Source: Craspedostauros australis
Lineage: Eukaryota > Bacillariophyta > Bacillariophyceae > Mastogloiales > Achnanthaceae
Assembly (NCBI GenBank): GCA_026770025.1
Contig: JAMXDE010000011.1
Coordinates: 2,170,001-2,234,000 of the forward strand
DNA: 64,000 bases
Reading direction: 5' to 3'
Shown piece by piece: positions 1-62,932 of the stretch. Each line of letters opens with the position of its first letter. The stretch's first letter is position 1. The translations under genes and the position numbers were made by a program. The notes under the pieces are model-generated. The model did not search any database, was not told the DNA's origin, and saw only the letters and a list, made by a program, of their open reading frames with translations.

Positions 1-2106
1 CAACAGGGATCGAATCCTGCAGCGCCGGGCATCAAGGCCATCCCGACAGAGAAGTACAGGCTTCTTGCGCTGCCAGAAGACCGCATCTCTCTCAGCGAAA
101 CGCTCTGCTTGGTTCGAGAGAACATCGAGGTGTTCACAGCCACCACGAAAGACGTGGAGGCACCTGCACCAGGTCGGAAGCATCCCGTCCAGGTGGGTCA
201 GGTTGGGTTACGCTGCGTCCATTGCCGACACACGACGAAGGCAAGCGAACGCGTCAAGCGTGCGGTGTGTTACCCATCCTCCATCCGCAGGATCTACAGG
301 ACAGTCATCGACATGAAGCTGGACCATCTGCCACGGTGCAAGTTCGTCCCCGACAGTCTCAAGGATACCCTGCAGGCCATGAGAGCGAACACCACGCGCA
401 GCACGGGCACCACGATGCAGTATTTCATCCGAGCCGCCAACAGCATCGGCATGGTGGATTGCAAGACCGGTGTCCGCATGGTGGATGGAAGCATCGGCAA
501 CGCTTCCGAAATCAACAGCACGAGCACCAGCGTCTTCAAACCCGTCAGAGTGATCTCCAAGGTGAGCGTCCAGGAGCAGCCGGTTGCCGGGGCATCGCCA
601 GGTGCTGCAGGTGCGGGCGCCAACACCCGAACACTTTCCGTGACCAACAGCCCAGGAAGCAGCGGCAGCACCAGCACCAGCGGCCGAGCAAAAAACCGTG
701 CAGGAAGCACATCCGACATGGCGCTGGTCCGCAACGCGTCCATGGCCTCCACCGGCATTGACTCACTATCACCAGGCGCCACCAAGGACACTGGAGCCAA
801 GGCTGGCACGGGAACCGACAGCGACAGCGAAGGCAACATACCACAAGAGATGTTCATGGGCAAAGCCAGCCTATCCCAACCCGAAGACAAGCAGTCGCTG
901 AGCCCGCTGCGTTGCTTCCTGCGTCAGCAGGTGTGCGCCTTCACGGCAACCGAAGAAGACATCGCCGTCCGAACTCCAACCAGCTTCTCCGTCACCGTCG
1001 GCCAGGTCGGCATCGCCTGCGTCCACTGCCTCAACCTTCCGCCCAAGCAGCGGACCAACCGCGCCGTGTGCTTCCCATTCTCCGTCACGCGCATCTACCA
1101 GTCAGTCGCCGACATCCAGCGATTCCACATGCACGAGTGCAAGCAAACCCCGCCCGAGGTGAGGGCAAGATTCATCCAGCTGCAGGAGGCCAGCTCCAAG
1201 GGTTCAAAGGGTCTGGCAACTCGTCAGTACTGGATCACCTCCGCCAAGAAGATCGGCCTGGTCGACACACCCACCGGCATCCGGTTCAACCGCGATCCGG
1301 AGCAACCGGAGGCCAAGCCGTTCTCGCTGGACATCCTCGCGCAGGTGGCATCCAAAGTCAAGACGACGAACAAGCCTTTGGTGATGCCAGAGGACAAGCC
1401 GCGCATCGCCGAGTTCCTCTACGTCGTCATGGCGCAGTTGCAACCGTGCCGTTTCACGGAGGCGGACAGGAACAAGCGTCGCTTGAAGGACGTCGGCTGC
1501 ATCGGCGTCGAATGCAAGCACTGCGCCGGCACGGTGGATGGACGCAAGTTCTTCTGGTCCAGCGTCAGCGCCGTCGAATCCAACTTCGTCTCCGTCCACA
1601 CCCACATGATCGAGTGCAAGGCGGCTCCACCGGAGCTCAAGGACCAACTGACGAGATTGAAGAAACTCCGCAAGCAACAAACGGCAGCGTTGAAGACAGG
1701 ATCTCAGAAGGCCTTCTTCACAAACGTGTGGAATCGATTGCATCAGGAAACCACGACAGTTCCCAAGCAGGAAGACAAGCACAATGAAGACAAGAAGGAC
1801 AAGGAGGAAACTGGTGATGGTGGTGGTCGTCCGGACAGCGTCAAGAAGAAGGAGGCTGCTGATGTGACACCAATCACAGCAACCTCCTCCTCCAACAAAA
1901 ACGAAAGCGAAAGCGAGGTGAACAACAGCAGCACCGACAAGGACAACACGATGATAGAGGTGTCCAAAACGCCATCTTCCGACGTGGAAATGAACTCCGC
2001 CGCTCCGATGGATTCGTCAAAGAAGGAAGGAAACCAACAGAAGGAGCATGATGCCGGTGCATCCTCGGAGGAAGACACCGCCGCCATGATTACAGCTTCT
2101 GTGTGA
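1..2106 (+). CDS. Protein with three tandem C2HC zinc-finger-like repeats (5' end outside window)
   Basis: The frame is open from base 1 to the stop at 2104-2106, giving 701 residues with no credible start, so the gene is truncated at the window edge. It holds three copies of one unrecognised domain, at about residues 29-155, 297-430 and 464-580. Each copy has the segment GQVG(I/L)xCVHC or a variant, a basic stretch, an RIY-type helix and then HxxxC. The putative metal ligands are CxxC followed by HxxxC after 33, 32 and 26 residues. Copies one and two also share a (Q)Y(F/W)I..A...G(M/L)VD tail. Ser/Thr/Ala-rich linkers separate the copies, and the C-terminal 120 residues are charged and Lys/Glu/Ser-rich. 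I associate this repeat with diatom multigene families that have no assigned function. Metal or nucleic-acid binding is inference only. No intron is needed within the window. Confidence 0.8.
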   Translation, partial: QQGSNPAAPGIKAIPTEKYRLLALPEDRISLSETLCLVRENIEVFTATTKDVEAPAPGRKHPVQVGQVGLRCVHCRHTTKASERVKRAVCYPSSIRRIYRTVIDMKLDHLPRCKFVPDSLKDTLQAMRANTTRSTGTTMQYFIRAANSIGMVDCKTGVRMVDGSIGNASEINSTSTSVFKPVRVISKVSVQEQPVAGASPGAAGAGANTRTLSVTNSPGSSGSTSTSGRAKNRAGSTSDMALVRNASMASTGIDSLSPGATKDTGAKAGTGTDSDSEGNIPQEMFMGKASLSQPEDKQSLSPLRCFLRQQVCAFTATEEDIAVRTPTSFSVTVGQVGIACVHCLNLPPKQRTNRAVCFPFSVTRIYQSVADIQRFHMHECKQTPPEVRARFIQLQEASSKGSKGLATRQYWITSAKKIGLVDTPTGIRFNRDPEQPEAKPFSLDILAQVASKVKTTNKPLVMPEDKPRIAEFLYVVMAQLQPCRFTEADRNKRRLKDVGCIGVECKHCAGTVDGRKFFWSSVSAVESNFVSVHTHMIECKAAPPELKDQLTRLKKLRKQQTAALKTGSQKAFFTNVWNRLHQETTTVPKQEDKHNEDKKDKEETGDGGGRPDSVKKKEAADVTPITATSSSNKNESESEVNNSSTDKDNTMIEVSKTPSSDVEMNSAAPMDSSKKEGNQQKEHDAGASSEEDTAAMITASV

Positions 2107-6721: not shown

Positions 6722-6930
6722 CATTCGCATCGTAACCGAAAGGACTCAACCGGAAACCAGCTTGCCTGACCGCACTCCACGGAACTCGCAGATATACTAC
6801 TACACGAGCCAGACGCCTCTCCCGGTCCTCCATCGCAGATTCGTCACTGGACCACAAGTGTGGAGTAGTCCATTACTTCAGCATTATACTCTGCTGAAGA
6901 CAGTTGCGAGGAGAAGCAGCCAGCAGTATC

Positions 6931-6985
6931 CTAATACCGCACCATACCGCACCATACTGTGTCATACCACACCATACCACACCGA
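6931..6985 (+). repeat. 10-nt tandem repeat next to the J-domain start
   Basis: Five degenerate copies of ACCATACCRC lie 20 nt before the ATG at 7006, so they are most likely in the 5' UTR. Confidence 0.75.
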
Positions 6986-7005
6986 TATCAACAAACAAAG
7001 CAACA

Positions 7006-9115
7006 ATGAGGTTCGATCTGGCCTTCATGCTGTGCTGCTGCAAGTCCTTCCTGGGATCGGAGGAAGACGATGGCGGCACCTACTACGACATCCTCGCCCT
7101 GGAGCGCGACGCATCGCAGGATGACATCAAGCGGGCCTACAAGCGCCTCAGCCTGCAGCTGCATCCCGACAAGCTGGCGCAGCGCGGCAAGACCATCACG
7201 GAGGAGGATCAGGCCAACTTCACCAAGATGAAGGAGGCCTACGAGATCCTCTCGGATCCTCACAAGCGCGAGACCTACGACGCCATCGGAGCCAAGGGCA
7301 TGAAGTGGATGGACGAGCCGTTCTCCATGGATCCGCAGGAGATGGCGCACAACTTCGCCAAGTCCTCCGTCCTGGATCGCTCCAAGGTCTTCGCCATCTT
7401 CGTGGTCATTGCCATCGCCATCCTGCTCCTGCCCATCCTCATCTGCCTGCACGTCGATGGCGCCTTCGGGGACGACGCCTCCTGGATGTGGACCCTCACG
7501 CCGCTATGGATTTGGAACGCCTTCATCCTATTCTACCATTCCCGCGTCATCATGATGGGTCCCATCCACCGACCCGAGAACATACCCGAGGAGGAGTGGG
7601 TGGACCCGCTCCCCATGCTCAAGCGCGTTGTCTCGCTGCTGCGATTCCTCCTCATCATGGCCTTCGAGGTGCTCTGCGCTCTCAAGATCGATGCCATCAT
7701 CAACGTCGGTTGGCCGGTGGTCTTCATCCCTCTCATCGCCTGGGAGATCTCCACCGTCTTCAAGAAATGGCCCGCCTCCCAGCTGCGCGTCGTCACCGTC
7801 GAGGATCTCGAGCAGGCCCTAGGCAAGCCGTTCCATGAATTCTCACCCACAGAACGGGACCTCATCGCCAAGCGCTACTCCGTCGTCCCATCCGCGACCA
7901 GCCCAGAATTCGAAGCGGCCAGCAAGATCAAATCCAGGGCGCGACACGATCTCATCGTCAGTTGCTTCCGTCTCTCCTTCACGATCATCCTCCTCGCGCA
8001 GTTGCAATACTCCATGGATTGGAGCTGGTGGATCATCTTCGCGCCCTTTTGGATCCTCTCCGCCCTCCTCTGCTGTGCCAACTTCAATCAGTACGTGGAA
8101 GTGCAGCAGATGGCGGCGGAAAAAGACCCCAGCCTCTTCAGCGACAAGGAGCACGACACGGGCGCAACGACGACAGCAACAACAGCAGCAGCGGGCACGG
8201 CAACACCGACAACGCCCACCAGCGCCACGGCAGACGTCGAAACCGGCGACGCTGTCAAGACTGCGTCCAACGAGGCTTCCACCAACTACGGTTCCGTCGG
8301 CAACAACGGCGATGCCACCCCCATCACGCCCTTGACGGAGGAAGAAAAGGAGGAGCTGCGTGCCCAGGTCATCCATTCCAGCTCCAAGCTCTGCAATAAG
8401 TGCTGTTCGCAAGGATTCACCCTCATCCTCATGATCATGTTCATTTCCAAACTTCAGGGTGCCGACTTTTCCTCGCTTTGGATATTGTCGCCCTTCCTTT
8501 TTGCGGTAAGTCGTCGCTCCATTTGCGATGTCTGTGCGATGTCTGTGCCATAGTGTGTACATTGCAGCACCACAAAGCCACACACCCCTGTGTAGTGCTC
8601 CACTCAATGATTCCTGCATGTCGTTGTCCGGATGTCCACTTTCAATTCCTATCGTCTCACTCGCATCTCCCATAATCTTCATCTCCACCCGCAACTCTCG
8701 CAATCGTATGGTGCATTCACAATGCGACCAATGGCAACCAACAATACACTGACCACGACAGGCCAGCATAATACTGTGCTGTTTGGGTTGCGCCATCTTT
8801 GGCATCACCGAAGTCCCAATTGATGATGTCGAATTTGACACGGCGAACACCGCTGCCAATTCTGCAGCACAGCCGAGCAACGCAGCGGCACCCGTCGGGA
8901 CGCATTATGCACCACCCCAGACTCCATCCACCGACGACGAAAATGACGATTCCACTGCATCGCAATTGCCACCACCTCCGTCGTCGTCGAGCGAGGAAGA
9001 CAACCAGAACAAGGCGACGGCGACGGCAACCTCCGCCCCTGGGCCGATTGATCTGCTGGATTCCAACTTTGCACCGGCATCGCAACCCACAAGCGACCTA
9101 CATGACTTGGACTGA
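7006..9115 (+). CDS. J-domain protein fused to TMEM185-like multi-pass membrane region
   Basis: Two exons, 7006-8505 and 8762-9115, give 617 residues. The start is the ATG at 7006 (context CAACAATG). Upstream in-frame codons encode only the UTR repeat. The intron (256 nt) has GTAAGT and CAG borders in phase 0, and the joined reading FAASIILCCLGCAIFG completes a membrane helix. A Cys cluster (MLCCCKSF) opens the protein. The J domain spans about 25-90, with the HPD motif at 53-55, so Hsp70 recruitment is expected. About eight hydrophobic segments follow (128-250, 318-362, 470-516), with the pattern LKID..I...W..VFIPL and WWIIFAPFWILSALLCC. This resembles the TMEM185/transmembrane Fragile-X-F-associated family. 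The C-terminal 100 residues are Ala/Pro/Ser/acidic. It is probably an endomembrane J protein; the organelle is not determined. Confidence 0.82.
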
Positions 9116-9503: not shown

Positions 9504-12500
9504 TCAAGAAGCATCCCACCCCTCTGGGAGCCTGATACGGAACTTGTTGCAAGTGACCTGGAAGATGTGATTGATCTCGGACCAAAGCTTTCTGCGACGG
9601 CAACGCCAACAACAACAAGCAGAGAAGATGGGCAGGGAGAGAATGGTGAGAATCGCGATGCGTATAGTACGAGCATTCAACAGTCGAATGCATGATAGAA
9701 TGCGGAATGTCGACACCACTCGTACTCACATGGCATGCTCGTAGATGTCCGTGGCCGGTCCGTTGTTGAATTTGCAGCAGTTGGAAAACACCAAGATCAG
9801 GTCCTGCTGGAGCTCCTGGATGGATTCGTAATGGTCCATGCGATCTTCGCGTATCGTTCGAAAGTCCATTGGGTCTCTAATCACTTTGTAATACGTCGTG
9901 GCCAGTGCCGGGTACGTTTCAACCACCGGCGCTGAGAATGTGTCACTTCGATCCAGCGCACACTGTTTCGCGTAGAAAAGCATAGAGAACAGGAGGAGAG
10001 TGTTTGTGATGGATTGTGTATTGTTTTGCATCACATGGCATGCATTTGTTGCATCGTCATTGAGTCGAGGCGAGGAGAATCGATCATTGAGTGCGTATGG
10101 TATGGTACGCAGGACGATCATCAACAACAAGCAAGGTGCAAAGCCAGAAAAGAGTCGGCATCGGGTGAGTGTCAAAAACGAATAGTCGTGCTGCGCTCAA
10201 GACACCATGCAGCGAAGAGCCTGGATGTAAACAGGCACACGGGCCACCGGGCAGAATACACAAATAATGCATCCATGCCATTGGGAACGCATGCAAAGTC
10301 GGCAATACTTACGATCCGCTTCATGATATGTTCGCAAACATCAACAAGTTTATCGTCTTCAATATCTGGCCAAGGTGCCAAGTCGGGAGTGGCGGGACCA
10401 CTTCCTGCTCTGCGTCGCTTTGCTGGATGGGGAGGGGCAGTTGCAGATACTGGAAAATTTCGTTTTCGTTTTCGATTGTGTGATGTGCGATGTCGGTAAA
10501 GTTGTCATGTTTGTCGAGTAGTGACATTCGTGGTGGCGCCATTGTCACGACGACCCATGGTTCATCCAAAGGGAAGCAGTTTGGGGGAGTGGACGCCGGC
10601 ACGTTTCGAACGGAACGGGGTATTTTGAGAGCCTGTGTTAGTTGGGGTCGTGCGGATTCTTTGCAGGATGTACGCATGGTACATCAGGGCATCGTCGAGT
10701 AGAACTATTCGAAATGAATGCTGTGCGGGCAGATGCCAAATGCCAAATCCAACAAGACGAAACAAGCCAAAGATGTCCATCAAAGAGAAACAACGCAAAG
10801 CAATGCAAAGCAACAACTCACCTGCACCCCTCCGTCTTCTCATGCCTGACCTGGTACTGTGCGTTGGCGTCGAGTCTTCTCCTTCGTCCTCATCACCGTC
10901 ATCTTCCTCCTCCACTTCATCGTCCTCATCACCGTCATTTTCCTCCTCCACTTCATCGTCCTCATCACCGTCATTTTCCTCCTCCACTTCATCGTCCTCA
11001 TCACCGTCGCCGTCACTTTCGATGTCACTATCATCGCCATGATCATACTTGGCATGTTGGGGGGCAGCATGATGATCCACACTGTCTTCTTCTTCGTCAT
11101 TGTCGAGCATATCTTCGTCCACGTAGCTGTCTTCGTCGGCATACATCGGCCTCCGTGCGCGGCTGCCTATCCGCGCGCTATGCCTCCGGTGATCTGCCTC
11201 GTCGAGAGCAGATGTGTCCTCCCCATGATTTGCAGCAGAAAGTTCCATTTGTTGTGGTGCAGAAGGCGATAGTCTGGCGCGCTGGGCCCGGCGGGTCTGC
11301 CGACCAGGCGTGTGACCAATCGCTCCCTGAGGATTCGGGCCGTCATCACTGCCGGTGGAATTGCGTTGGCGATGGTCGTCGTCTTCGTTTCGCTGGTCAT
11401 TGCTACCATCTGTGCCGTTCGCAGCAATAGCTGCTGATCCACGTCGAAGTGATCGGCGCGTGCTGCGCATGTTGTGAGACGCACTCTCATTTTGGGACGT
11501 CTCCCCTGAAATTCCATGTGTGTTAGGACCCTCGCTGATGATGTTGGAGTTCATGTTGGTGGTCCCTCTTGCTGGTCTCTTTCGAGCTCCCGTCGTCGGT
11601 GCGCGGGCTCTAGCACGTTTGTTGTTCTTGCTGATGCCGTTGCTACTGCCGTTGCCATTGCTGTTTCTTCGCGGACGAGCGGCGATCTTCCCACCACCGT
11701 CGTCTGAGTCGTCATCCATATGCTCGCTCGCGTCGCTGTCATCATCCTCCTCTTTTCCCTCTTCGTCAACATCGCTGTGGCCATCGTTTTTCTGCGTTTC
11801 CTCCCATTCCTGCTTGGGTTCGTCATAATCGGAGTCGGCCTTGTACTGAGCAGCTTGGCGTCTGGTTGATCGCTGCGGATGGGCACGACCACGCGTGTTG
11901 CGTGACATGCCTGCAATATCACCATTGCCCCACTCCCGCATTGAAGGAATGGATGCGCCCACATGGCTGTCGTCGTCGTCATCGTCGTCGTCGTCATCAT
12001 CTTCATTCGCAAGTCTTGTCGGCATCGATGCAACGGCAGGTACAGAGCGCCGTGTTCGTGGTGGAATTGGTGGAATGGCACCACCCGAGATTGGAGTTGT
12101 ATCATCATCCGTAGTCGTACGTGCCGCATTTCTGCGATTCATCCTTTCGCGGCGAGAACGTGCAGTGGTATTGTATGCCAAATGAGAATCTGGTTGGCTT
12201 CCATGCTCATTATCCACTTCCACTTCCACTTCCACATCCATGTCATCCTCGGCTTCAACGTAGGAGACCGGTTGTCTCCCACGCCGTGCTGCAGCTGATC
12301 GTGTGCCATCCCTGCGTTGCGGAATGAGTGCGAGTGTGTCCTGTCGCTCGTCCCCTGGATCGATGGCGCTTCGGCGTGTCCGAGCCCGTCTACCACGCTG
12401 AGCAGCAGCAACTGCCTGGTCTGGACGCTGGAGTTGTTGGCGCTGTTGCTGCGAACCAGGTTGTCTCCCCTGGCGCTGCGGTAACACGCGACCTGGCTGA

Positions 12501-15500
12501 TGTTGATGCCGTTGCCCAGGCCTTTGAGACTGGCTGCTGCGTGTCCTCCTCGTCCGCCCAGCAGCGGCACCGGTACCGGCACCAGCATCTTGCCGCGGTG
12601 GTGGCATCAAGCTGTGGACATCGATCATCGATTGCTGGCGGAGGAGGGTGTCATAGCCTTCTTCTGTCAGCAGGTTGGAACTTTCATCTTCCGAGAGGAG
12701 CATCAAGGAAACGAAAGTCCGGTAGACCTCGATCATATCCTGAGACAGCGTATGCGCTATTCCATTGAATTTGATACAATTGTCTCGTACCAGCTGGACG
12801 TCAGCGATGGCGCTTAGCTTCGACGAGTAGAAGCCCTGTTGCACCCTGGCGTTGATCTTCAGCAAATTCATGGGAACCTCTACCATCTCCATGTAGTCAG
12901 GGTACTGGTCGAGGTTCAGAGGATGCGCGAAGTACTGGCGGACGGATCCGGAATAATCCATCGCGTTGACCAGGCTGTCGATTGCCAGCTTCTTCTCATC
13001 ATTGGTCAACGATGGGCGCGCGATTGTCGCTCCTTCGACGTCAATCTCCCAAGGGCTGATGTGCTCGTCGAACCCGGTCCCATCGCGGATATGGATCGAT
13101 TCGAATCCGCTCATGGATAGGTGGGTGGAGTTGGTCTCGTCGCTGTTGTGAATCACTTGCACGTATGATTCGTACTGCGCCATCTCTGCGTCTTCCTCGT
13201 CGGACTCCCCATAAAACACCTTCACCGTGAGGCCTTGGTGATTGCCGTTGCGGTTTTGGATGGCAGCCTCGAGAGCGGCTATCCGGCTGGAATACAGACA
13301 GTACGGCACAATGAACTCACTGTACTTGTTCTCAAACTTCGATACTTCGAAGAGGTACCGGGTCTGCACCGGGATGAATGACGCAGCCTGCCAAGGATAC
13401 GCGCGCTCGGCCGAGACGTCCGGAATCCCTGTCACTTCGAGTATGAGAATCGCCACGATACTCGTGCACAATGCTCTGCAAATCATGCATCGTAGAAGAT
13501 TGAGACGGTCCAAAAGGAACAAAAGTGGATGACGGAAGAAAAAAGCAAACGGATGAAGATAGTCAGCCAAAGTTGTGGCGATGCACAGGACCAGCCGGAA
13601 ACACATGACAAACACTGGCAACTTCGCAAGTGGGCAACACATGTAAATCGTGACACACTGCCGCCTGTGGCAATCCCAAACCGATCCTTTCAGCGGGCAC
13701 ATTGCGTCGAACGCAATGCGTCCATCACAATCCGCATGCCAGACTTGGGCATGCCAGTATAGAGGAGGAGGAAGAAGGGCACAGGTGACCGACCAATCAC
13801 TTACCGTCTGTGCCTGATGTAGTCTTCGGGCGGAAAGCGATATCGAATCGCACGAATGACGCATCGCACGACTGGCCAATCCGTTCCCGTGGGCCATGTC
13901 TGCCACGGGATGGCCATGCCAGGGAACTCCTTCAACACCTGCTGGTGGGCACGGGGGATGTACACAACAGTATCACCTGCTTGCGGACAGTACGTCTTGT
14001 GTCCCGTGTACGAGGTGTCGCTTTCCAATCTCATGAGCCATTTTCTGTCCATGTGAGTACTTTCACTCAATCCCTTGGGCATCCTCCAGAAGTGACCAGC
14101 CTGCTCGTAGTCACGAAGGTACGGCCCGCTGGGTGTATTGTTGGTGCTGAGATACTGCAAGAGCGGTGCAACTTCAGACTCAGAGTCGATCTCGGATCCA
14201 TTGTCATCATGATCATTATCGTCGTCATCATCGAATCGACGGCGTTGGCGGCGTCTTCGCGATCGCTGGCGCAAGTTCGAAGGTGAGTTTGAGCTGGATC
14301 GAGTGGATCGAGCACTGCCCGGCCTCTGGGGAGTACGGGATCGTGGTCTTGGGCTGGTCCGGGATCTCGGTTGTGGCCGAGGCCGAGGGCGAGACCGTGC
14401 CGATCCGAGAACACGCCCCTCACCGTTGCGGGTGAGGTCATCCCTTCTTGCTCGTTGCCTCGCTGCTGCTCTCTGCTGGCGAGGTTGCTGAGGGCCGCCT
14501 TCCTCAGTGAGACTTCCGCCGACAGACATTCCTTCGATGTACATGTCCTCCACGACTGTGGCATCGTGGATCAGTTCGTCATCAGACTCGTCAGATCCTT
14601 GCTGCTGAGAAACCGAGGCGCGTCGGGTAGCGGTTGGATCGAATTCTTCATCGTCGGTCTCGTTCGCATCATCATCGTTGTTTTGCTCTCGCAGGATGTC
14701 TTCGTAATCCCTCCAACGATAGTTCGATGAGAGCTGTCTCTGCTGTTCCTCGGAGTGCTGCTGGGTCCCGAATGGAAGCTGGAAGGGGACAGCAATAGGT
14801 GGTGTCGCTTGCTGCGAAGATTGCGGTTGCTTTTGAAGGTACATGCTCCTGCCATCGAAACCGTTGACAAGAATAGTTGAATTTGGGTCGAACTCTCGTA
14901 TGGCACGGCGGATTTTCATGCTGCTATCATGCACGGCTTGTGGCGGGATGCTGTTCCTTGCAAGGCGGTTGGCGCGGATCGCACAGCGGATCCGGCGCGA
15001 TTCCTCGACGTCGACAGGCACTGGACCGGTCAATGACTGGAAGGTCTCCGTGATCTCTGTAGACATGGGTGCGCCAGTATGATTGACCCTCACAGCTCTC
15101 GGTGCCAGATGTGGAGGTCGCTCAGAGCCGCGTTCGATGCAGTATCCGTTGGTATCGTACCGGAGATCATAGTAGTCATTTGCAAAGTACTGCTGTTGGA
15201 TCCAGTACGGCATGGACCTGTCTTGCGTCGATAGCTTGTGGACCATGGAATCGAAGATGCACACCCGACCTTTGTCGTCTGTCAACACAAGGTAGGTGCC
15301 ATCAGGGCTAAAGGAACCATCAAGAAACCCGCAGAGCTTCGTTTGGGTTTTCGCATCATTCCTCACAGGCACGGCGCTGTTGCTCGGCTCGAGTTTATTC
15401 GCATGCGAGAACAGGCAACGACCGCTCTCGCAGTCCCATGCCTTCAGCCAGCCATCCGCGCCTGCTGTGCAGACGATGGAGTCATTGAAGGGGTGAGGCA

Positions 15501-18500
15501 TGATGACAGGGCACTGCATTTGGTGCGCGTTGGCGATTCCAAGCAGGCAATGCCCTGTCCTGCTCTCCCACAAGAAAATGTACTGCGATCCCGGCCGGAC
15601 TTCTGTGTCGCTTTGCTTCGCCAGGATGCACTGCGATGTGAAGATCTTGGAGTCATCCCTCGACCAAACGGCTACATCGCATGAGACCGTGTTGCTGACC
15701 GATGGACCTCGTTTCGCGTTTGCATTTCGGCGACGCCGGTTCGAGCTTCTGCGTTCCTCTTGGCCAAATTCAGGATTCGTCAGATTGATGACGATGTGGC
15801 TGACATTCGCGGAGTCTGAATACGAATGCGATGCCGCCTTCGATCTGGCTGACGCCTTCAGTTTTTGGTCCAAGAACCAGATGCGGACAACGCCGTCCTT
15901 CTGGCTTGCACTGAGGATGCGATCTCCGACGTGAGAGTACACCAGATCGGTGACTGCGCTGGTGTGCCCAACCAATTTGAGGATCGGTTTCACTGGTTGA
16001 TTCGGACGTAGGAGAGACAGAAACATAAATTGAAGTGGCAAGGAGGCAGCAGCAATTTGGGGGCGGGCGAGAGGAATTTTGTGAGTATCGTCTTTGATCA
16101 CTTTCGATTGGCACGACATGTTCATGTTGGTGCCGTGCCAGAGCGCCAAAGGATCTGTCTGTGCACACCACAGATCACATCACATCGCATCGCATCGCAT
16201 CGCATCACGTCACATCGCATCAAAAGGCAGAGCATTCCACGTATCGCACATCACACCGGATGCCACATCCATTCATGAGAAAGGTTGAGCACTTGGAAGA
16301 AAGAGCGAGCAGAACATCGACGTACCATCAACCCCAGAACTTGTCGATCGGGGCTTCCTTGAGCCGTTCAATCCACCAAGAGCACCGTACGCTGATTGAG
16401 ATGTCCTATCGAGTTTCTGGTCGATCAAGGCCACAGCTTCATCGTCACAGTCCTTCCAAACACGACAAACGCCGTCATCGGAACCTGTCACGAAGTAACC
16501 TCCCAACGGATGCCTTGTAACGCAGATCACGCTCACCCTCTTGCGAGAAGAGCGTGTACCAACGTTGCGTCGTTGCTGCTGCTGCTGCAAATGCTGGGGG
16601 TCGTCCGTCCCAGCATCGTGGGGATACTTGACGGCGATCAAGACGCCTTCGTCGATATTATCATTCGCCACGAACTGACCAATCTGAACGTTGTTGTTGC
16701 GTCTGTTTGCGTTGTTGTTGCCTGCAGCCCTTGGAAGTGGAGGGTTGGGTGGTGGCACTGCTGCTGCTGCTGCCGGTAGTGGTGGCACTGCGTTGCGATG
16801 CATCGGCTGCGTCGGACCACTGGGCTGGAGAGGATTTAGCGGACTCAGCGGATTCAGCGGCGGCAGTGGAGGTAGGACAAGTGGCATTGCTGCTGCCGCT
16901 GCTGCTGTCGTACCTGCTGCGTGCGGTAGCAGTGGCAATGAAGGTGGCAGCGGAAGCATGGGAGGTCCTACATTTTGAACTGTGGCTACTCCACCTTGTA
17001 TTTGGATTGGCGCTGCCACCGGCGCAGCGGCTTGAGAAGGATTCGCCGCCATCAACGTTGCCCCGCTGCTGGTGTTGGTGTTGCTGCTATTGCCGCCACT
17101 CGGCGCAGCAGCGTTGGTCGTGACTTCGGCGCCGCTGGGAGGTGAGCTTTGGTTGGGATTGAGATTTACGTTGCCACCATCGGCGCCATCGTTCTTGCTG
17201 GAAGCTTTCTTCTTTGGCTTCAAGAGGGCAAGGTTGTATTCGGGACGACGTCCGACAGTGGAGCCATACCGCTTCAGCGTTGCTTCTCGAACATCCCACA
17301 ATCTCGCGAAGCCATCAGCGCTCGTTGTGATCAGTCGGTATGGGGTCAGTTTCGACCATGAGACCTGAATTGGGGAGCAGGCGAGTGTTACGGAGCAGAG
17401 CAGAGCAGTGGAGAGTATGCATGTTTGTGCATGCGCAGCCACGCATTGAAGCGTTCGTCGTTATTTTTTGGTTCAGCGAGGAGGCACGTCAGCGAATCTC
17501 TTGTTGTCATCGTTTTCATCATTTTCATCGTCCGGATACTGCGTGCTCGTCACACGAGAGAGACAGACAAACTTTCATGCGTTCGCATGAGGCTTCATTC
17601 ATCATGGCATCCAGAGGCAGGGCGATCAAGAAATAAACAGGAAACATGCAAGCAAACAAATGCGGGACATGCATTTTTCACTCACCATGTTGGCTCCGCC
17701 AGTGTGTCCTCTCAATATGGCGATGGGGCATCCATCTTTCAGTCCCCACACACGACAATCACCGTCGACCGAAGCTGTGGCAAGGAAGCAGTTATCGGAT
17801 GAAACGTCAATATCATTGATCACGCCCGCATGGCCGCGCAATGAGCATACCAACACCGCTCCTCGGACATTTGCACCGTAAATAGACGTCTTCTCGATGC
17901 TGCCATCTGGCGTCTTCCTGGCCCGCCTGGATTTGCCCGCTCCCAGATGAAACACCTTGACGAGGAAGTCGTCGGCGCCTGTGACGAAGAAGCGCCCGGA
18001 TCTATCGAATCGCAAGCAATAAACCGGGAAATGCAGATGGACGTTGGTGGTGAGGGCGTGAGATAACCGATTTTGGAAGAAGTTCTTTCGAAGGCCTTGC
18101 ATTCTCACGCCGATTCTATTTTTCCGCCGCGCTCGTTGTGGAAGGAAGGAATTGTCGATGCCTGTCTGACGATGCACCAAGTCTTGAAGGACTGGACTGC
18201 ACATTACGTTGCCTTGTCGCGAATACGGTACCGTGGTCACGGAATGATCGTAGTACGAATTGAATTTCGTGCATTCCTTCCGCAGTCTTTCCAGCTTCGA
18301 CTCCAGCATGCCAAGCTTTTTCTTCTCTTGTTCTTGCTCTGCTTGCAGTGCGTCGAGCTGCCTCCGCAGCTGGGACGCAACTCGCTGGTGAATCGAATCC
18401 GTTGGTGCTGTGGTTGATGCTGCCATGAAAGGTGCTGATGCTGATGCTTGCGCTGATGCTTGCGCTGATGTTATTCGTTTTGTTTTCGGCGGTTGCAATG

Positions 18501-19873
18501 ATCGTGATGTTGCTGATGTCGCCGCTGATGTCGCCGATGCTGGCGCCTTTTGCGACATGGTTGATGTGTTGTGATTCATCGCAAATGCCAAGAGATCCAG
18601 GCCGCTGCTCTGATGTCCTATCGGCAATCTCGTTTGCATTTGTTGTTTCTGTACTTTCGTTTGTTGCTGTTGCTTGTTCGCTCTCATTGGCTTGGCATGA
18701 CCAGCTGTCTTGTTGAGGGAGAGTTGCAGGGATCTTATCTTCTCTTCATTCGTCTGCACCACCTCTCGTTGGTCTAGCATCTGCCGCGTGGCACCCGAGA
18801 CTTCCACCATCAATGACTTGTATTTCGATCGGACCTCCAGCAAGTGAGTTGGTGTGGTGGCCTTGACCAGGCTGGTGCTGTTCGCAATCCGCGATTGCTC
18901 GTTCTCGTCGATCTGCAAGTGGACAGGTCGCTGCAGGCACGATGGGATTGCGTCATTCGTTTCCGCGTCATCCAAAGACCGCATGTGCCTCCCGCCATTG
19001 CTTGTTGCAGCGCCTTGATTATCGCCATCCACATCAATTGCGTTCTGCGCTCGACGTCCATCTGCCGCCTTCCTCGCGCGCTTTTGATCATGCAGTAGCG
19101 GCCCTGCTTCCTTCAGTAGATTCGTTGGCGCCACGATGGTTGCGCAGCGATCTGCTGCCGCGGATGCTGCGGTGGCCGAAGTAACGACCGCCTCGAGATG
19201 ATTCTGGTCCAATCCTCCCCACTTCCGGTTCATGTCTGCGTAGGTAGCTGGCTTTGCGTTGGGTCCCGAGCCGTAGTTGCGAATCGCATCACCTGAGAGA
19301 GATGGCTGTCACGGCCAATTGAAAAGAAAAATGCAGGCAGAGCAGAATGGAGCAGAATAGAGCGCGGGTAGTACCAGTTGCAGCACACAAAATGAATGTA
19401 GAAGACACATGGTGAGAGCGCATTCATGCATGCATTCATGCTTTTGCATGGATCCAACCATCATCAGCCCCCAGTGGACTGCAATCGACATGATTCTCCG
19501 AAAGTTCTCGGCAGGGAACGCGGATGGAATGAATGGAAGATCTTACCCGAAACGCGGTTCCGAAAGCACCCAACTCCGTGAAGGCTGATGCAAGCTCCGC
19601 CGCTGCTCGCCGAATGCGTTCTTGCTGGGCTGCCTGCTCCGGAGTGAGCTTGGCTCCTTCGCCGTTCTCATTGCTTGTGGCCGCAAAGTTGTGCAGATAA
19701 TGAGTGACGAGGAACGGGAGCTCGGTTGATTGGCTCTGTATCCCATGCGATGATGGAATCGCAGGTGTTTGAGATCCCATAACTTGCTGCCGCCCACCAC
19801 CATCGCCATCAACACCGCCTTCGGGCTTCGGGATCGCGCCCTTCGTTCTCGCAGGTGGCTTCGAGTCCTCCAT
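9504..19873 (-). CDS. BRWD/PHIP-type WD40-repeat double-bromodomain protein, 8 exons
   Basis: Exons, 5' to 3' on the minus strand: 19873-19547, 19305-17686, 17364-16326, 15992-13805, 13475-10822, 10449-10313, 9962-9730 and 9591-9504. Together they encode 2761 residues. Every junction has GT/AG borders, agreeing phase and an unbroken domain. Introns are 241, 321, 333, 329, 372, 350 and 138 nt. An N-terminal BRWD-like helical region is followed by a coiled coil. The WD40 propeller spans about 530-1245 (e.g. GHAGVINDIDVSSD...CRVW, GHTSAVTDLVYSH) and has a long Ala/Pro/Asn insertion near 690-890. A BRWD-specific region follows, then bromodomain 1 (about 1880-1985) and a 640-residue acidic/basic linker. 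Bromodomain 2 (about 2632-2755) ends at the C terminus. Both bromodomains keep the acetyl-lysine-binding Asn (KFN). The family reads acetylated chromatin and serves CRL4 ligases. The first splice junction is the least certain. Confidence 0.85.
10884..11010 (+). repeat. 36-nt minisatellite coding an acidic 12-residue repeat
   Basis: About 3.5 copies of a 36-nt unit (TCGTCCTCATCACCGTCATT plus 16 nt) lie in exon 5 of the BRWD-like gene. On the minus strand they encode DEDDEVEEENDG repeats in the acidic linker before bromodomain 2. The copies are nearly identical, suggesting recent expansion. Confidence 0.92.
16176..16221 (+). repeat. (CATCG)n-like pentanucleotide repeat in intron 3 of the BRWD-like gene
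   Basis: A run of CATCG/CATCA pentanucleotides lies inside the predicted 333-nt intron (15993-16325). Its being confined to the intron agrees with the exon model. Confidence 0.85.
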
Positions 19874-58620: not shown

Positions 58621-58957
58621 ACCCAACCGTGTTGTCACCAATTCATCACCTGCTGGCAACGACGAGAGACTTCCAGAGCAGCAGACAGCATCTTGGAAGG
58701 ATCGATCCGCCCAAGTCGATCAACCAACCAATTAACCAGGCAACCAATTAACCAACCAACCAAGAATATCCGTGGTCTCCACGATACGCACGTTCAGCGT
58801 GATCCTTCCTCTGTTCGCAGAGTCACGGGATAGCAATACTAGTGGTGAGCAACAGCAACAGCAACAGAATCCACGCCGAACATCCTTGCATTGGGTTCGT
58901 TAGCGGCAGCATTAGTAGCAACGCAGCAGCATCGTCCGCCATCCGGACCTTGCGCTG

Positions 58958-61900
58958 ATGATGGCATTGAACTCCGGAACGAGTGCGGAAGCGGCGAGCG
59001 GCGGCCCTGCTCGGACGACGACTGCCACATCCGTCTCTTCCAAACAACGCGGGCGACGAAGGTCCAAAGGAACAATCGCAGGCTTTGCATTCGGTGCGGA
59101 GGCCCGGGATGGACGGCAAGCCGGAACGGGAGCGGGCAATGATGGAGGCCAGAACGGAAAGGAAACGAGCGGGGGATCCACCAACTCCACCGTGGCCTCA
59201 GCGCTCTCCACCTCCGGCCAAGGCACGCAGACTGCCCTCACCAACGACTCCACCACCCAAGCCCCAGCATCCATGTGCCATTCGGCCCGTCTGGCTCTGT
59301 TGGCGTGTCAAAACGCACTGCAGCTGGGAGCCAGGACGCAGCTGGGGCTCTGCCCGCCAGGCCGTGCTCGGAGGAACCTGCATGCGGCGTTGCGCCACAG
59401 CAAGAACGGCAAGGCTGGCAAGGGCAGCAAGCAGAAAAGCGCCACAGTGTTGGCTCTGCAAGCTGGAGGCCAAGGGGCCGCTGATGGATACTTCTCGCTC
59501 GAGCGCATGCTGGGGGCCCAGACGTTCGATCAGCTGCTCTCAGGAGAAGCGGACTTTTTGGCCAACACAAGCGCCAACGCTCTTGATGCCAACAGCGACG
59601 AGGAGGCCAGCAGCGGGGATGAGGATGACCTCACCGACATCGACGACCTCCTCAACGACAACTCCAGATCGCTCAATGACGAAGGCAAGTACAAGGTGCT
59701 CAGGGAACCGCTCTTCACACCCACCGGCGCAGACCCCTCCGCGGGCGCAAATGCTGGAACGATGGGCGCCATGGCTCCCAACGGACTCGGCAAGCTGCCC
59801 TTCAATCGGAGGAAGATTATGTTTTTTGATTCCAGCACGGCAAGCGATCATGCGGCAGCCCGCACCTATTTGTCGGTGGAAGCACGCAAGAGCAAGCAGA
59901 GGGAGGTTCTTTTGCTAACGCGTTATCTTCGGCGGATGCAGAGAGAAGAGAAGCAAAGAGTCAAGAACAACCTGGGAGGCAGAGCGGCTGCCGGCGATTC
60001 GGATCTCAGCGATCAGGAGAATGACTTTCAACGGGAGAAGAACCTGGCTGCCACCGGCATGTCGCGGTTCGAACAACCCATGACACCGGCCATCGCGTCG
60101 GCGCTCCTCGTGGAAAGTCTGTCAATGAATCCGGTCGAAAGTTTGGAAGGAATGGCGAAGTGCTACGAGGGGATAGTGCACGCCGGTGTGGCAGTGCTCG
60201 AGATCGGACATCACGACACTGCATCCCCGCTGGATGGCCAGGACAAGATGCACCGAGAGAGATCAGACATCGTGGCCGTGCTCACCATCCTGCTCATCAC
60301 ATCCCTCGAGCAGCCGTCCGGCGAGGCACTCCTGGCGCTGGCGCAGCTCCGCAGAATGTGCGGCACACCTCGGTACCAGCGTCGTTTCGTGCAACGCATC
60401 GCACCCTCGCTGGTACGTCCACCCAGGGGTGCCGTGTGGTGCCTGCGTCATCAGAATGATATGGAACCGATCCTCGCCGCCGTCGAACTCATCTTGGATT
60501 CCGCATCGCAAATCTTCTCCAAAGGATGGTTCGAACGGGGGAAACTCATGCTTGCCGACTCAAAACGTGCAGAGACGCTCAATTCGGCGGCCACGCAGCT
60601 CAGAAATCTCGGAGGTGACCCCTCAGACGGACCCACCCTTGGATTGACAGGCCACGGCCACGGCCACAGCATGCGAAGAAGCAACAAATTCGGCGCGGCA
60701 TCATCGCACGGAAGGGATGGTTCGAATGGACCTGAAGCGCTCGCGGAGTGGGAGGTCATCGCGCTGGACAAGCAAATCACGGTTTCCATCACGCGCATAA
60801 TATCCACCGACTGGTCCAGCATCCCGCAACCAAACGAATTGAACAGGTCCGGATCCTACCACCATCGCCTCATGAAGTCGTCGTCCTTTGCGCGGCGCAA
60901 TTCGAGCGGATTCGCATCGCAGACATCCGAGGGCAGCTCACGTGGCATTCTGTCGACACCACTGAGTCCAACGCGTCCAAGAACCAACGTGACACCGACG
61001 ACTCCTCCAGCGCTCAACTCGTACTCGCAAATGACAACAACCGCGGCAGCAGCCACCGGATCCGCATCGGCTCAGGCAGATCCAGCCGCAGCCGCGACCA
61101 GCATCCCCACCCTTGCGAGACCGGCAGATATGGACCAGCAGAGCAACCCGACGACATCCGCACCGTTCACAACTTCCCTCAAGCAGTCTCCGTCAACAAG
61201 ACCAGATCAAATCACGGACGTCCAAGTTGGGGTCAGCGGCGGCTTGGGTCAAAACAAGATTGACACCGTCCCAGCACCGCCAAGCCAGATCAATCAATTC
61301 GGCGCCAACACACCTCCACGATCGCCGCGGCGCGAGAGGACGCCGACCTCCATGTCATCCGATCCGCTTATGCGGCCAGCGCAAAATTCCCTGGGTTCGG
61401 TCTCATCACCGACGCCATCACGGTCATTCGAAAACGATGCCAAGAATGGATTGAATGCAAGAGGACAGTCTGCGTCATCAACGTACGCATCCCCTGCATC
61501 GTCACCATCGCCCGCCGCCAATGCGCCGTCCGCAAAGGGGGCAACAACGCCAACGCAGACGGTTCCTTCCACAGAGAACGAGCGGGCACCATTGTCACCG
61601 TCATCGCCTCACACCGGTACGTCTGGCCCCGACATGGCGTCATACAGACCTGCTTCGTCCGCATCTTCCGTTGCATCTGCTTCCACCATGGGATCGCAGC
61701 CAACCAACTACAGGATGCTCACATCCACGGCCGCCGAACGCAAGCGAACCGTCGCCGCGTGTCGCGCGCTCAGGTCGCAAATCATTCGTTTCGAAGAGGC
61801 GTTCATGCAGCTTCACGGGCGACCTCCGCGCGGAGCGACAGAGCGCGCACCTCTTGCATCGACTTACGCTCAGTATCGCGAGTGGAAGAAGGCCATCCGC

Positions 61901-62932
61901 GCGGATGCCGCGTGCCGTATCGTGGGTCTCGTGAGAGGCTTCCTTGCTCGTCGGCGTCTGTTCCGCAGCAACGACCCTGCCAAGGTTCGATTCATCGCAA
62001 CGCGCAGAGAGCGCCTTGGTCAAAGAGCCATGCAAGGTCAAGACCACGTCATGGCGCAGCTCGCCCTGCCCGCGGATATCGGAGATCCTGGAATCGAGAT
62101 GCGGAGCATGGGCGGTTCCACCGCCAGCATCACGTCTTTCGGCTCCGATTCGCTTCGGTACGATGACGATGGCTCCGTCAACAGCTCGGGCTCCGGAATT
62201 CCCCGCAACAGCAGCTCCAAGCGTCGATTGCCAGACCGGCCGGATGGCTTCCCCATGTCGCCGGCGTCCCGACCGTATTCGTCGCAGCCAGGCAAGCCTT
62301 CGTCTCCCGCACCAGGCGACGAGGACCTTGCACAGCTTCCCCTTCACAGTCTGCAGGCTCGCAAGCGGGAGCTGAAGCAGCAGCTGCGGCAGTACGACAT
62401 GGCCTTTGCCCGTCGACATGGCCGCATGCCAGTCAAGGCGGAGAAGGAGCCCATCCGTCACCTTTACGAAACCTACAACACCCTCAAGAGCTTGATCACC
62501 ACCAGGGGGCAAGAAGGCCCTGGCGCGTCGTCTCCAGTTGCCATGCAGCAATCGCCGTCTGGCAGAATGTCGCCGCAGAGCATCTCGCCCGCATCAGGGA
62601 AGGATATCGGCGGTCATGAAGCATCGCGCATGCGCCTCCGGCGTCCAAAAACGAGCCCATCTCCGGTTGCCGACGCGATCGCATCGCCCCCGGTACCAAT
62701 GTCATCACCCACGCCCACAGGCCAAGACCTCGCTTCCCTGCGTGCCGAGAAGGGCAGACTTCATCAGATGCTGCGTTCGTACGAGAGGGACTTCTACCGC
62801 GAACACAACCGCCAGGTGTCGAGCTTCGCTGACATTCGGCCTGTGGCTAGTGAATACCGCAGGTACAAAGAGATCAAACGGGCGATCGAAGCAGTCCGGC
62901 AGGAGAGCGGCGGCAGCGATAGCGACCGGTAA
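58958..62932 (+). CDS. IQ-motif protein with three FAM13-type C-terminal repeats
   Basis: A single exon encodes 1324 residues. Two ATGs in tandem start it (58958, 58961). The N-terminal 370 residues are Ala/Gly/Ser-rich with an acidic patch (SGDEDDLTDIDDLLND). A helical region at about 375-545 is unrecognised. A Ser/Pro/Thr-rich disordered segment runs to about 930. Three copies of a FAM13-like unit follow, of the form L..K..L...L...D..F...HGR.P....E..P....Y..Y...K..I, at about 936-985, 1131-1180 and 1259-1316. The third has HNRQV in place of HGRxP. An IQ-like motif (IVGLVRGFLARRRLFR) directly follows copy one and could bind calmodulin. Animal FAM13 proteins carry one such unit. The function is unknown; it may be a signalling or cytoskeletal scaffold. 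Confidence 0.83.
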   Translation: MMALNSGTSAEAASGGPARTTTATSVSSKQRGRRRSKGTIAGFAFGAEARDGRQAGTGAGNDGGQNGKETSGGSTNSTVASALSTSGQGTQTALTNDSTTQAPASMCHSARLALLACQNALQLGARTQLGLCPPGRARRNLHAALRHSKNGKAGKGSKQKSATVLALQAGGQGAADGYFSLERMLGAQTFDQLLSGEADFLANTSANALDANSDEEASSGDEDDLTDIDDLLNDNSRSLNDEGKYKVLREPLFTPTGADPSAGANAGTMGAMAPNGLGKLPFNRRKIMFFDSSTASDHAAARTYLSVEARKSKQREVLLLTRYLRRMQREEKQRVKNNLGGRAAAGDSDLSDQENDFQREKNLAATGMSRFEQPMTPAIASALLVESLSMNPVESLEGMAKCYEGIVHAGVAVLEIGHHDTASPLDGQDKMHRERSDIVAVLTILLITSLEQPSGEALLALAQLRRMCGTPRYQRRFVQRIAPSLVRPPRGAVWCLRHQNDMEPILAAVELILDSASQIFSKGWFERGKLMLADSKRAETLNSAATQLRNLGGDPSDGPTLGLTGHGHGHSMRRSNKFGAASSHGRDGSNGPEALAEWEVIALDKQITVSITRIISTDWSSIPQPNELNRSGSYHHRLMKSSSFARRNSSGFASQTSEGSSRGILSTPLSPTRPRTNVTPTTPPALNSYSQMTTTAAAATGSASAQADPAAAATSIPTLARPADMDQQSNPTTSAPFTTSLKQSPSTRPDQITDVQVGVSGGLGQNKIDTVPAPPSQINQFGANTPPRSPRRERTPTSMSSDPLMRPAQNSLGSVSSPTPSRSFENDAKNGLNARGQSASSTYASPASSPSPAANAPSAKGATTPTQTVPSTENERAPLSPSSPHTGTSGPDMASYRPASSASSVASASTMGSQPTNYRMLTSTAAERKRTVAACRALRSQIIRFEEAFMQLHGRPPRGATERAPLASTYAQYREWKKAIRADAACRIVGLVRGFLARRRLFRSNDPAKVRFIATRRERLGQRAMQGQDHVMAQLALPADIGDPGIEMRSMGGSTASITSFGSDSLRYDDDGSVNSSGSGIPRNSSSKRRLPDRPDGFPMSPASRPYSSQPGKPSSPAPGDEDLAQLPLHSLQARKRELKQQLRQYDMAFARRHGRMPVKAEKEPIRHLYETYNTLKSLITTRGQEGPGASSPVAMQQSPSGRMSPQSISPASGKDIGGHEASRMRLRRPKTSPSPVADAIASPPVPMSSPTPTGQDLASLRAEKGRLHQMLRSYERDFYREHNRQVSSFADIRPVASEYRRYKEIKRAIEAVRQESGGSDSDR

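Follow-up and report, generated by a model that had tools for sequence, protein, structure and literature searches.

The DNA examined here was a 64,000-nucleotide window of the diatom Craspedostauros australis (C9:2170001-2234000 in a 74.8-Mb genome of 90 contigs), and its 5' end encoded part of a protein with three copies (D1, D2, and D3) of a cysteine- and histidine-containing domain. We found that the genome contained 42 such copies, distributed over 28 loci. The copies formed one homologous family with two subtypes, an invariant set of four predicted ligands, basic charge, and a recurring gene architecture, and the family apparently had no name. We judged the chances to be even that the domain was a zinc-stabilized, basic Cys-Cys-His-Cys (CCHC) module of nuclear regulators that bind DNA or chromatin. 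The original prediction, which was made from the letters of the window, had described three divergent copies of one domain in a single protein. Its observation was confirmed as real and its interpretation was partly supported. It had not noted that the gene started outside the window, that 27 other loci carried the domain, or that D3 belonged to a different subtype than D1 and D2.

Three copies of the domain in the window gene

As shown in Table 1, D1, D2, and D3 were located in a 701-residue open reading frame (ORF). This ORF formed the C-terminal part of an open frame in the genome record that was 1574 residues long and began at L031:3382 (window base 1 was L031:6001), about 2.6 kb upstream of the window; the first Met was residue 10. 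The N-terminal tail of the whole protein was 890 residues long and was rich in Pro, Ser, Gln, and Ala. The product also contained the stretch PPKRTKVGRPS, encoded upstream of the window, which we take to resemble a nuclear signal and the GRP core of an AT-hook.

D1 and D3 were 40% and 23% identical to D2, respectively. All three copies had the CxxC...HxxxC set reported earlier, with 33 (D1), 32 (D2), and 26 (D3) residues from CxxC to His and 3 residues from His to Cys in each case. The preceding strand, originally given as GQVG or GCIGVE, read GQVGLRC in D1, GQVGIAC in D2, and GCIGVEC in D3. A profile built without the window copies, from the other 30 uninterrupted ones, scored the cut-out D1, D2, and D3 sequences at 147, 159, and 113 bits, respectively, and control sequences (2000 shuffled window copies and reversed ORFs) reached at most 9.4 bits. 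The three window copies are not chance occurrences. The motif alone was rejected as evidence because it was common in reversed ORFs, too; specifically, C..C.{20,45}H.{3,6}C was found 54 times in reversed ORFs versus 137 times in forward ORFs (1674 ORFs from overlapping loci). The evidence for the family resided in the whole domain, and the motif by itself was weak.

The domain family in the genome

When the window frame was used as a protein query, 40 places were identified in the genome, and searches with a subtype B copy (14 places) and a distant subtype A copy (39 places) added no further locus; these counts are lower bounds. Repeated rounds of profile searching over these loci yielded 52 non-overlapping matches, which comprised 33 uninterrupted copies and 19 partial matches. 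Eighteen of the partial matches paired into nine copies, each of which read through after removal of a GT-AG intron. The remaining one was a short N-terminal fragment close to the C1:2766888 copy, and that copy was itself without its first residues. The copies were gathered via whole-domain similarity; a copy that had lost a ligand could still be found in this way, and very decayed copies were perhaps missed.

The introns of the split copies are score-based gene models in which no transcripts were used. In five of the nine split copies (three on C8 and two on C1), the best-scoring intron was located just after a Tyr/Phe-Tyr/Phe-Pro run, before the long helix, and in phase 1. The intron of the C53 copy was one codon earlier and also in phase 1, and those of the C29 and C49 copies were some residues later and in phase 0; the C29 donor, GTCCGT, looked poor. 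The C18 copy had its intron elsewhere and remained open even when the intron was not removed, and this interruption may be an insertion.

The 42 copies were not fully independent because they included two near-identical pairs, one shared by C7 and C16 and the other located on C1 (1.85 and 1.99 Mb). We used relatives of the window gene, and not the window gene itself, to estimate the ratio of nonsynonymous to synonymous substitution rates (dN/dS). The ratio was 0.14 for the C7 and C21 domains, with a synonymous divergence (dS) of 1.58, which is near saturation, and this related pair was under purifying selection. For C7 versus C16, dN/dS was 0.44 in the domain and 0.39 in the part before it, and the halves of the C1 pair gave values of 0.37 and 0.28; few changes underlie the estimates for both of these pairs.

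Conservation, subtypes, and gene architecture

The claim that selection had acted on a fold built around CxxC...HxxxC was borne out by the alignments. Gly51, Cys54, Cys57, His90, and Cys94 (numbering of D2, the first row) were the sole invariant columns in the 33-row alignment, in which the mean column identity was 29%, and the same five columns alone were invariant in all 42 copies after the nine split copies were added. The proposed spacing of 26 to 33 residues held for D1 to D3, but the family was looser. The distance from the second Cys to His ranged from 26 to 41 residues (32 in 21 copies), and the distance from His to the last Cys was 3 residues in 26 copies, 4 in 11 copies, 5 in 4 copies, and 7 in 1 copy.

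A tree of the 42 copies separated 30 subtype A copies from 12 subtype B copies (support, 100/99); the tree program warned of long branches meeting, and the inner placements are unsure. The A and B profiles aligned over 126 columns with a probability of 98.4% (expectation value [E], 6.5e-15). Recent tandem duplication within the window gene was rejected on the basis of this tree. D1 grouped with both copies of the C1:463399 gene (support, 91/86), D3 was placed in subtype B beside a copy of a C8 gene (support, 89/89), and the placement of D2 within subtype A was unsettled.

Nine genes contained more than one copy, and the copy orders were AA, ABB, AB, ABAB, AB, AB, ABA, AB, and AAB (the window gene). 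An A copy was directly followed by a B copy in eight of them. The single-copy loci consisted of 17 with a lone A and two with a lone B. Most copies were basic and were located near the C terminus, behind long low-complexity tails. The mean net charge was +7.3 for subtype A (n = 30) and +9.8 for subtype B (n = 12), and a net charge of at least +5 was found in 35 of 42 copies versus 12 of 61 non-domain segments of family ORFs, among which some overlap is possible. The pooled N-terminal regions (11,587 residues) contained 10.9% Ala, 10.7% Ser, 10.0% Pro, and 9.4% Gln.

Predicted fold and proposed function

AlphaFold models of D2 and D3 were built from only three alignment rows. The predicted local distance difference test (pLDDT) score was 66.7 for D2 and 72.7 for D3, and the predicted template modeling (pTM) score was 0.60 and 0.66, respectively. 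Up to CxxC, the models had a common order of helix, strand, helix, and strand ending at the first Cys. After CxxC came a very short strand, a long helix that ended at or close to the His, the last Cys, and two helices; the D2 model alone had an additional 4-residue helix after CxxC.

The invariance of the ligands suggested that the domain very probably binds zinc. In the mechanism that we propose, the domain would be a zinc-stabilized CCHC module of about 130 to 150 residues. The zinc would be held on one side by a Gly-x-x-Cys-x-x-Cys turn in which a short strand ends, and on the other by a His close to the end of the long helix that follows, together with a Cys a few residues later; two further helices would complete the module. 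The basic modules would bind DNA or chromatin in nuclear regulators, and the Gln/Pro/Ser-rich tails would recruit other factors. A nuclear role at DNA or chromatin was proposed because of the basic charge, the C-terminal placement behind the tails, the stretch resembling an AT-hook and a nuclear signal, and a match to the MRG domain in one family member. From these features, a nuclear location of the proteins appeared likely, and direct binding of DNA by the module had slightly less than an even chance.

Searches against known families

Scans of the 33 uninterrupted copies and of 19 long family ORFs, representing 18 of the 28 loci, found no Pfam match over the curated cut-off inside the domain; none of the nine split copies was scanned in its full length. 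Nothing near the cut-off was found in NCBIfam (two proteins scanned). Single copies gave weak matches to unrelated Pfam families, such as Plectin (E, 0.018), SOK (E, 0.025), Cytochrome_CBB3 (E, 0.026), and E6 (E, 0.036), and profile matches in the PDB were also weak, the best being MqsA (E, 0.041). A virus, phage, plasmid, or prokaryote origin was rejected, as nothing was found in viral contigs, prokaryote contigs, phages, or plasmids; the scans of viral and prokaryote contigs used short peptide patterns, which detect close relatives only. In the open-licence literature, no title or abstract opening described the domain, and no paper contained both "diatom" and "GQVGIRC." In public proteomes, members of the family may already be listed as hypothetical proteins. 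The original prediction associated the domain with diatom genomes, and it may occur in other diatoms.

The sole Pfam match over the cut-off in the 19 long ORFs was to MRG (PF05712), in the C9:1369870 gene and outside the domain. The match covered residues 661 to 723 of a 1008-residue frame (L076:368-3394, minus strand) that also contained a B copy. It scored 48.9 bits against a cut-off of 22.8, and only the C-terminal third of MRG was matched. MRG is a separate domain, and it was seen in this 1 of the 19 ORFs.

Alternative interpretations

We considered it unlikely that the domain is a diverged member of the Pfam clan that includes BIR, zf-C3HC, and NuBaID_C/Rsm1, which would make protein-protein contacts, for example in nuclear pore or chromatin complexes, instead of binding DNA. 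Judged by ligand pattern, zf-C3HC (PF07967) and Rsm1 (NuBaID_C, PF08600) modules were the nearest named relatives; membership by sequence was unsupported. A report on yeast Pml39 (PMC9586977) gives C-x2-C-x34-H-x3-C for its zf-C3HC module and C-x2-C-x16-H-x3-C for its Rsm1 module, and it describes further features of BIR-like modules besides the ligands. The family had the same ligand order, Cys-x2-Cys...His-x3-Cys, with a spacing near that of these modules. The view that no named family has this spacing was not supported in that form: the Pml39 zf-C3HC spacing is close. No curated family scored over its cut-off. The Cys, Cys, His, Cys set was kept in all 42 copies, of which 16 departed from a His-to-Cys spacing of 3. 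Like zf-C3HC and Rsm1, the family would form its zinc site from a strand turn and a helix, and two different modules occurred in one protein.

Two of nine B copies matched NuBaID_C weakly (best E, 0.045), and the ORF with the C53 B copy scored 15.8 bits (E, 0.016), below the cut-off of 20.2. These matches may be due to chance because unrelated families matched about equally well. zf-C3HC was not among the matches of the 33 copies, and its 3 places in the genome did not include a family locus; likewise, no family locus was among the places listed in a genome search with NuBaID_C. The family profile aligned with the genome's zf-C3HC protein (C25:90957-91220, 36.8 bits) with all four ligands in register, but the probability was 3.4% and the score of 22.3 was hardly above the best of 60 shuffles (20.9). 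The conserved features of BIR-like modules were mostly absent as judged by simple patterns: Rxx(S/T) with an added aromatic or aliphatic residue was found in 1 of 42 copies, Gly-aromatic was seen in 11 when the 25 residues preceding CxxC were considered, and 3 had an aromatic residue (two Phe and one Tyr) at the second position past the last Cys. The domain may work like a BIR-like module, but we do not classify it as one. The zf-C3HC protein itself (L069:1447-2697 on C25), which is presumably ZC3HC1/NIPA-like, had two CxxC...HxxxC-like sites and was separate from the family.

A BED-type or other C2H2-like DNA-binding finger captured from a transposon was a much less likely explanation. zf-BED (PF02892) has a CxxC turn and then a helix with His-x(3-5)-Cys/His, a layout that the domain shares with its strand turn and its His-x3-Cys at the helix end, and the many scattered paralogues would suit such an origin. 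However, zf-BED was absent from the matches of the 33 copies at E values up to 1, and a genome search at E values up to 10 identified 11 places, none of which was a family locus. No transposase match was found in the 19 long ORFs, the copies were mostly old and divergent apart from the two near-identical pairs, and the models had extra helices before and after this layout. We gave marginally less credence still to a zinc module that binds RNA or is purely structural and takes no direct part in transcription. The basic charge would suit RNA equally well, but one member had the MRG match, and the 19 long ORFs had no RNA-related Pfam match at E values up to 0.1.

Significance of the family

Algal transcription factor surveys sort proteins by DNA-binding domains that are already known. 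In one such survey, which drew on databases of established factors and domains, heat shock factors were the largest family in the diatom Phaeodactylum (PMC4827209). If the domain described here binds DNA, such surveys would leave these 28 candidate regulators out of their tallies. For comparison, the genome had 118 exon-level matches to the heat-shock-factor domain. It is a tentative and somewhat doubtful proposal that the domain represents an unnamed class of zinc-dependent DNA-binding domains, with two ancient subtypes used in A-B pairs, that gave rise to a family of about 28 transcription regulators in this diatom and would be missed by surveys restricted to known domains. The alignment supplies a ready profile, defines the residues to be mutated, and delimits small constructs for expression.

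Other features of the window and genome

Scanning the window with Rfam and for tRNA genes identified nothing. The WD40-repeat and bromodomain frames in Table 1 look like exons of one gene, presumably a BRWD/PHIP-like gene.

Table 1. Coordinates of features identified in the window
Feature	Position	Strand	Remarks
C-terminal 701-residue part of the 1574-residue frame	1-2106	+	Frame 1; open at the 5' end; stop codon included; remaining frame upstream of the window
D1, subtype A	52-510	+	Predicted ligand codons: Cys 214-216, Cys 223-225, His 325-327, Cys 337-339
Low-complexity linker, D1 to D2	511-858	+	Ser/Gly/Ala/Thr-rich by composition
D2, subtype A	859-1320	+	Predicted ligand codons: Cys 1018-1020, Cys 1027-1029, His 1126-1128, Cys 1138-1140
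D3, subtype B	1366-1815	+	Predicted ligand codons: Cys 1513-1515, Cys 1522-1524, His 1603-1605, Cys 1615-1617
Low-complexity acidic C-terminal tail	1816-2103	+	Net charge of last 100 residues, -11
DnaJ domain and Tmemb_185A match	6898-8550	+	Single open frame; domain scan
Bromodomain frame	10565-13972	-	Comes after the WD40 frames
WD40-repeat frames	17629-19308, 16276-17460, 13804-16179	-	Within 10565-19308
Drc1-Sld2 (DNA replication) match	58919-62929	+	1337-residue frame; 25.7 bits, just under the curated cut-off of 28

Elsewhere in the genome, the silicon transporter family PF03842 had 88 matches (e.g., C2:977655-1028778, C9:2024068-2025684, and others on C11, C24, C37, and C61), which is unusually many for a diatom; these matches and the many heat-shock-factor domains agree with a diatom host. 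Thirty-two of these scored over 760 bits and were near full length, and 28 of the 32 were without internal stops.
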